Origin: Vicinamibacterales bacterium
Lineage (GTDB): Bacteria; Acidobacteriota; Vicinamibacteria; Vicinamibacterales; Fen-181
Length of the DNA stretch: 53,662 bases
Assembly (NCBI GenBank): GCA_036504215.1
Contig: DASXVO010000055.1
Coordinates: 1-53,662, forward strand
Direction: 5' to 3'
Part shown: positions 7,100-10,836 of the stretch, piece after piece
Numbering within the stretch: the stretch's first letter is position 1
How the letters are laid out: each line of letters starts with the position of its first letter
The notes under the pieces: generated by a model
Told to the model about the DNA's origin: nothing
The model's input: the letters and a program-made list of their open reading frames with translations, nothing else
Databases searched by the model: none
Translations under genes and position numbers: made by a program

Positions 7100-8407
7100 G
7101 TGACGATGATGAAGGTGCTGCTGGTTGATGACAGTCTGACGATTCGGTCCCTGCTGCAGCGGACGCTCCACGGCTTGTTCCCCGTGGAGACCGCCCACGC
7201 CGCCAACGGGGTGGAGGCGTTGGCGCAGATCAACCACCACCGCTTCGACCTCGTGATTCTCGACGTCAACATGCCCGTGATGGACGGCGTCGAGACGCTC
7301 GAGGCGATCCGCACGTCACCAGACCACGCCGCGCTGCCTGTCGTCGTCCTCACCAGCGAGCGGAACGAGGCCGTTGTCCGGCGCCTGGTGGAACTGGGCG
7401 TCAGCGATTTTCTCTCGAAGCCGCTCCGGACCGAGGTCCTCGGAGAACGACTGCTCAAGCTCCGGAACCAGTGGCTGGATCGCGCAAAGGCCGCGCTCCC
7501 CATCTCGCACCAGGCGGGCGAACGCCTCAGGATCATGGTCGTCGAGCAGGATCCGGACCGGCGTCACTTCTTCACGACCGTTCTCCACTCGCACTTCGAT
7601 GTCGTCGAGGCCGATTCCGGGGCCGCCGCCCTTCAAATCTGCCTCGCACCGAACCAGCAAAAGCTCGACCTCGTGCTGGTTGGCGATCAGATTGGGCTGC
7701 CCCCGGTCGAGATGTTCGTGCCGAAACTGCGGACGCTGGCGCCCGCGTCGAGCGCCCGCATGGTCGGGTGCCGATCGAGTCGTCAGGCCAGCGACATGCG
7801 CATCGAGCACCTGTTCGACGGCATGGTGCAGCGAAGCCTCGTGCCGGAGGTCTTCCTCGCGGAGTTGCAGCGGATCTTCTCCGGCGCCGGCCGTCCGCTC
7901 GGCAAGCTGCTGGCGCTCCGCCCGAGCCTGCGCAAAGACATCGTCTCCGCGACTGAGCAGGTATTCGGGATCATGCTGTCGGTGCCGGTCGAGTTGAGCG
8001 ACAGCGGATCCGCGGCGGCCACCAGCCAGCCGCTCGATGGCGCCCACGCCACCATCGGCCTCGAGACCGACGGCGAGCTCACGCTGGACCTCCGGTTCGA
8101 CGCGAGCCACCAGACCGGCCGGGAGATCGCGGCCCGCATGATCGGTGTGGATGCGAGCGAAGTGCAGGACGCCGACGTGCTGGCATCGGCGGCCGAGCTC
8201 GTCAACATCGTCATGGGTCGACTGCGAAACCGGCTGGTGGAGACGGACGTGCACGCGCAGATCCAAATCCCGAAGACCTGGTTCGGCGACGACGGCTCGG
8301 CACCTGTCGCGGATGACCCGGACGGGATCGTTCTCCACTTCGGTTCCCCCGCCGCCAATCTCTCGTTCCAGCTCACGCTGTCGGCAGGACCCAAGAGCAG
8401 CGGATAG
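7100..8407 (+). CDS. Response regulator fused to a degenerate receiver and a CheX-like phosphatase domain
   Basis: Residues 5-120 are a canonical receiver: acidic pocket VDD at 9-11, phosphoacceptor D55 in LDVNMP, T85, and K107 in SKP. Residues 142-260 resemble a second receiver, but the phosphoacceptor position is Gly (LVLVG), so it is probably a pseudo-receiver. Residues about 285-430 look like CheX/CheC: S363, E366 and N369 (SAAELVN), then P391, fit the SxxExxN...P signature of CheY phosphatases. The protein may therefore both accept phosphate and remove it, from itself or a partner. GTG at 7100 has GAGG six bases upstream; ATG at 7106 or 7109 is possible. It converges on the hybrid kinase gene at 8443. 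Confidence 0.85.
   Translation: MTMMKVLLVDDSLTIRSLLQRTLHGLFPVETAHAANGVEALAQINHHRFDLVILDVNMPVMDGVETLEAIRTSPDHAALPVVVLTSERNEAVVRRLVELGVSDFLSKPLRTEVLGERLLKLRNQWLDRAKAALPISHQAGERLRIMVVEQDPDRRHFFTTVLHSHFDVVEADSGAAALQICLAPNQQKLDLVLVGDQIGLPPVEMFVPKLRTLAPASSARMVGCRSSRQASDMRIEHLFDGMVQRSLVPEVFLAELQRIFSGAGRPLGKLLALRPSLRKDIVSATEQVFGIMLSVPVELSDSGSAAATSQPLDGAHATIGLETDGELTLDLRFDASHQTGREIAARMIGVDASEVQDADVLASAAELVNIVMGRLRNRLVETDVHAQIQIPKTWFGDDGSAPVADDPDGIVLHFGSPAANLSFQLTLSAGPKSSG

Positions 8408-8442: not shown

Positions 8443-8453
<11 letters not shown>
8424..8453. terminator. Inverted repeat between convergent signalling genes
   Basis: Two copies of the 8-nt palindrome AGACGTCT lie at 8424-8431 and 8446-8453 around a centre containing CGGCCG. 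An RNA from either strand could pair the copies. The second copy overlaps the last codons of the kinase gene. There is no T-run, so termination is unproven. The right half is shared with the intergenic inverted repeat at 40625-40680. Confidence 0.4.

Positions 8454-10836
<2,383 letters not shown>

Follow-up and report, generated by a model that had tools for sequence, protein, structure and literature searches.

A response regulator family from an Acidobacteriota order combining an intact receiver, a pseudo-receiver and a CheX-type domain

Results

A three-part protein conserved in 33 homologues

The window, i.e., the whole stretch of 53,662 nucleotides analysed here (contig DASXVO010000055.1 of a Vicinamibacterales bacterium), contains on its forward strand an ORF whose product was confirmed to be a three-part protein made up of an intact receiver (REC1), a pseudo-receiver (PsiREC) and a CheX-type domain. 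According to the reading favoured here, to which we give an even chance, it is a response regulator of PleD-like layout, in which phosphorylated REC1 would gate, via PsiREC, a CheX domain directed in trans against CheY-type receivers.

The ORF and the fusion of an intact receiver, a receiver lacking its Asp and a CheX domain had both been proposed in a preliminary description; the ORF at 7100–8407 (+) is present and real, and the domain reading was borne out by Pfam, alignment and fold comparison. In total, 33 distinct family ORFs were collected, 3 of them without an alignable PsiREC, and conservation across these homologues excludes a chance origin of the domain layout. Since the homologues begin with MK or MN, translation probably starts at ATG 7106 or 7109 and not at GTG 7100. 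Residues are numbered from the Met at 7109, so that each number is three lower than in the preliminary description. The features of the gene and of its neighbour are as follows:

7100–8407, + strand: gene for the REC-PsiREC-CheX response regulator, 435 codons when counted from GTG 7100 (ORF and translation; 33 homologous ORFs)
7109–7471, + strand: REC1, intact receiver, residues 1–121 (PF00072, 106.7 bits; Asp52 in 32/33 members)
7262–7264, + strand: Asp52, predicted REC1 phosphorylation site (alignment of 33 members: 32 Asp, 1 Glu)
7472–7522, + strand: flexible REC1-PsiREC linker (model pLDDT <50 at residues 123–138)
7523–7876, + strand: PsiREC, pseudo-receiver, residues 139–256 (PF00072, 16.8 bits alone; receiver-like order of helices and strands in the model)
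7682–7684, + strand: Gly192 at the phospho-Asp position of PsiREC (30/30 members with an alignable PsiREC)
7832–7834, + strand: Arg242 at the receiver Lys position of PsiREC (28/30 members)
7892–8392, + strand: CheX domain, residues 262–428 (PF13690, 36.7–39.8 bits; Z 19.3 to 3hzh_B)
8195–8206, + strand: E363-x-x-N366, the CheX ExxN pair (Glu in 28/33, Asn in 21/33 members)
8219–8221, + strand: Arg371, the CheX-domain residue best conserved in the family (32/33 members, retained where the Asn is lost)
8270–8272, + strand: Pro388 at N+22 (28/33 members; spacing matches 3hm4)
8443–10836, − strand: convergent hybrid histidine kinase HisKA-HATPase-REC-REC-HPt, a neighbour (Pfam; ORF open to 10980)

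REC1 and PsiREC

The whole protein scored 106.7 bits with the Pfam Response_reg profile (PF00072), for which the cut-off is 30.2 bits. REC1 possesses the complete set of receiver residues (D7, D8, D52, T82 and K104), and its closest solved structures are CheY chains. In PsiREC, the phospho-Asp is replaced by Gly in every member with an alignable domain. Binding of c-di-GMP by PsiREC, in analogy to ShkA, was considered as a possibility.

The full-length model (pLDDT 75.9) had a pTM of 0.42, corresponding to low confidence in the domain packing, including any docking of REC1 onto CheX. Searching the PDB with this model ranked PleD structures first and CheX structures lower; these PleD matches are driven by the double receiver and have low TM-scores, reflecting free domain placement.

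A CheX-type domain with a noncanonical motif

The preliminary description had named a search against CheX profiles as the check on its C-terminal domain. The domain passed the PF13690 (CheX) cut-off of 27 bits, with 36.7 bits for the full protein and 39.8 bits for the domain alone, the match covering residues 319–411. Modelled alone (pLDDT 79, pTM 0.77), it superimposed on Borrelia CheX (3hzh_B) with a Z-score of 19.3 and 2.1 Å over 149 residues; Z-scores were 16.6–17.8 with other CheX structures and about 9–11 with CheC, FliY and FliM. Profile and fold comparison thus both point to CheX.

In the CheC-type consensus, Asp or Ser occupies the position four residues before the Glu (E-4). In the window's protein, this position is Ala359, with a Ser sitting at E-3, and across the family it is filled by Ser in 16, by Ala in 12 and by other residues in 5 members. 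Of the motif S363/E366/N369 proposed in the preliminary description, the Glu and the Asn were therefore placed correctly (E363 and N366 in the present numbering), whereas the Ser was off by one. Because of Ala359, the C-terminal domain is described here as having the CheX fold and matching the CheX family of Pfam, but with a motif that departs from the canonical one, rather than as a canonical CheX. The Arg371 position is more conserved than the catalytic Asn, and neither 3hm4 nor 3h2d has an Arg there.

Distribution and variation of the family

Matches to a PsiREC-CheX profile were obtained in 28 of 193 genomes of the class and in 8 of 396 genomes of the phylum, all within the window's order. 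Among the genomes searched, the family was seen only in this Acidobacteriota order, where absence beyond Acidobacteriota is weak evidence, the search there having used a single lineage-specific peptide pattern. Plasmid records searched with PsiREC-CheX gave no match. All named family loci are from Acidobacteria MAGs, save for one contig labelled Bifidobacterium breve (L034, G102:C153), which carries an acidobacterial member. With 9,888 bp, this contig is exactly as long as one in a genome of the window's order, and it is probably mis-binned or mislabelled.

The nearest homologue of the window gene is L007/L068 (49% identity), and on the family tree the window copy pairs with L040, the same gene as L007, with a support of 100/100. 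The ExxN pair is absent in 12 of the 33 members, all 12 of which retain Asp52 of REC1, and the tree requires at least seven changes of the ExxN state (fewest possible, 7). Given this loss, it is not catalysis that keeps the family together. The reverse situation is found in two members with an intact ExxN...P: in L052 (G163) the phospho-Asp of REC1 is replaced by Glu, and in L038 (G049) T82 and K104 of REC1 are changed to Ala and Arg, respectively.

Several members deviate individually. A paralogue in the window's genome (L020/L067, G000:C79:66917-68179) has an intact REC1 and Ala for the ExxN Asn, and it adjoins a REC-PsiREC ORF of 306 aa without an aligned CheX. Member L021 (G021:C1:3275162-3276403) reads E-x-x-T where the ExxN pair would be, the Asn having been lost; Pfam identifies an HPt domain at its C-terminus, and it stands in tandem with the intact member L008. 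In L014 (G001:C308:77682-78458), which comes from a genus-mate whose genome has no CheA match, the C-terminal part is no longer alignable with CheX, as if frameshifted.

Gene neighbourhoods

Many members lie in or beside clusters encoding MotA/MotB, MCP, CheA, CheW and CheR; a cluster of the type HD-MotA-MotB-(hybrid kinase)-family gene-MCP-CheA-CheW-CheR is found, e.g., at L032, L069 and L076. CheA was present in 21 of the 28 genomes that contain a family match versus 22 of 134 without one (p = 3e-9). A by-eye comparison of CheA presence with an intact ExxN is not taken as a correlation. Neither the window locus nor its sister L007 has a che cluster, so that the link of the window gene to chemotaxis is made via the family and not via its own neighbourhood. 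The window's genome has three CheA, two flagellin and five CheX matches. The five include those at another locus of this genome (L001, G000:C19:31704-34943), where a standalone CheX precedes a single-receiver REC-CheX protein.

Co-directional hybrid kinases are directly adjacent to or overlap members L032, L073, L084 and L091, an arrangement consistent with REC1 receiving ordinary input from a kinase. In the window, the end of the gene is 35 bp away from the HPt-containing hybrid kinase at 8443–10836. Inspected by eye, the first receiver of this kinase retains an Asp but is without the acid pair (MVRS), and its Lys position is occupied by Glu; on these residues, it may itself be a pseudo-receiver.

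Discussion

A proposed gated phosphatase acting in trans

In the mechanism considered best, a histidine kinase would phosphorylate REC1 at Asp52, as suggested by the intact receiver residues. The non-phosphorylatable PsiREC would act as an adaptor that relays the resulting change, probably through REC1-PsiREC packing or dimerisation by analogy with PleD, and would thereby switch the CheX domain. The ExxN pair of CheX is reported to place the nucleophilic water (PMC3510030); E363 and N366 would accordingly position the attacking water in the window's protein. The substrate would be at least one phosphorylated CheY-type receiver in trans, and the protein would couple a kinase input to the termination of a chemotaxis-type signal. 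We infer the gating of CheX by phosphorylated REC1 through PsiREC wholly by analogy. A more specific version, in which the PleD-like switch controls CheX action on CheY~P in trans and a hybrid kinase sets the shut-off speed of a separate chemotaxis pathway, is put forward tentatively.

Action in trans is favoured because L052, with Glu for Asp52, and L038, with the T82A and K104R changes, both keep the ExxN pair; the argument rests on these two members, and REC1 of L038 may still be phosphorylatable. The chemotaxis neighbourhoods of many members and the co-occurrence with CheA speak for the proposed mechanism, and the hybrid kinases adjoining some members for its kinase input. Against it count Ala359 at E-4, the loss of ExxN in 12 members and the lack of che genes around the window gene and L007. 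Switching off chemotaxis response regulators on command is most likely, ahead of a protein that switches off only itself.

Such a self-limiting timer, in which CheX dephosphorylates REC1 of its own protein, either in cis or across a dimer, and so determines how long the protein stays phosphorylated, had been suggested in the preliminary description. It would be in line with the CheY-like nature of REC1 and the action of CheX on CheY-type receivers, and the flexible linker of about 16 residues that tethers REC1 in the model may allow access. However, with REC1 altered and ExxN...P intact, the CheX domains of L052 and L038 are poorly explained by REC1 as the substrate; the 12 members without ExxN nevertheless retain Asp52, and a timer would leave REC1 without any other output. 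Self-limitation is thus a possible role but a weakened one and not the best reading; we regard it as unlikely. The conservation pattern could alternatively mean that CheX is mainly a module for docking or scaffolding, which targets the protein to parts of the chemotaxis or motor machinery, its catalysis being vestigial. Arg371 is found in 32/33 members versus 21/33 for N366, and the repeated ExxN changes on the tree would agree with this, as would the shared fold of FliM and FliY (Z 9–10), given that epsilonproteobacterial FliY is without phosphatase active sites (PMC6946799). Yet the window copy and 20 others retain the Glu, the Asn and the Pro, and the domain is far closer to CheX (Z 17–19) than to FliM/FliY (Z about 10), making a mainly docking role, in our judgement, rather improbable.

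The preliminary description had also raised a phosphate-sink role towards the convergent hybrid kinase. REC1 would then drain phosphoryl groups from the HPt of the kinase, and CheX would speed up the drain. The short distance between the two genes is in its favour. The genes are, however, convergent and not operonic, no hybrid kinase of this type is found beside the nearest homologue L007/L068, and the conserved PsiREC and CheX would be left unexplained. Phosphate sinks are usually single-domain receivers. The idea is unsupported, and we consider it very improbable.

If CheX is indeed gated through PsiREC, a further two-component input would control how long CheY~P persists, and the family, with Gly in place of Asp in every alignable PsiREC, would offer a natural test bed for pseudo-receiver function.

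Comparison with known systems

No study of a response regulator with a CheC-type output, and none of the REC-PsiREC-CheX layout, was found in the searchable open literature. Response regulators with CheC-type output and CheA-CheC/CheX fusions as such are known; what is new, in that literature, is the REC-PsiREC-CheX layout.

Classical CheX of Borrelia burgdorferi and Thermotoga maritima has the same fold as the C-terminal domain of the window's protein (Z 19.3 and 17.8, respectively), and the ExxN pair with the downstream Pro is common to both. Classical CheX is, however, a separate protein, whereas the domain described here comes after two receivers in a fusion; Ala at E-4 and the family-specific Arg371 are further differences. 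Response regulators with CheC-type output, a listed class exemplified by Pseudomonas syringae PSYR0886 (PMC2222644), likewise join a receiver to a phosphatase domain of the CheC clan; as far as the listing of PSYR0886 as 'CheC-like' goes (PMC2222644), no conserved pseudo-receiver is described there. CheA-CheC/CheX fusions occur in Leptospirae (PMC10542144) and also attach a CheC/CheX domain to a two-component protein, but the fusion partner is the kinase there and the response regulator here.

In layout, the window's protein resembles PleD of Caulobacter crescentus, a receiver-PsR-diguanylate cyclase protein in which phosphorylation of REC alters the REC/PsR contacts, so that PleD dimerises and becomes enzymatically active (PMC12632262). 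By Pfam, alignment and model, the order of intact receiver, pseudo-receiver and enzymatic output is shared, and PleD was the best NCBIfam match of the window's protein, although with 75.6 bits it scored far under the model cut-off of 474. The output differs, being a GGDEF diguanylate cyclase in PleD and a CheX fold here. The window's protein may therefore function in the manner of PleD without being one itself.
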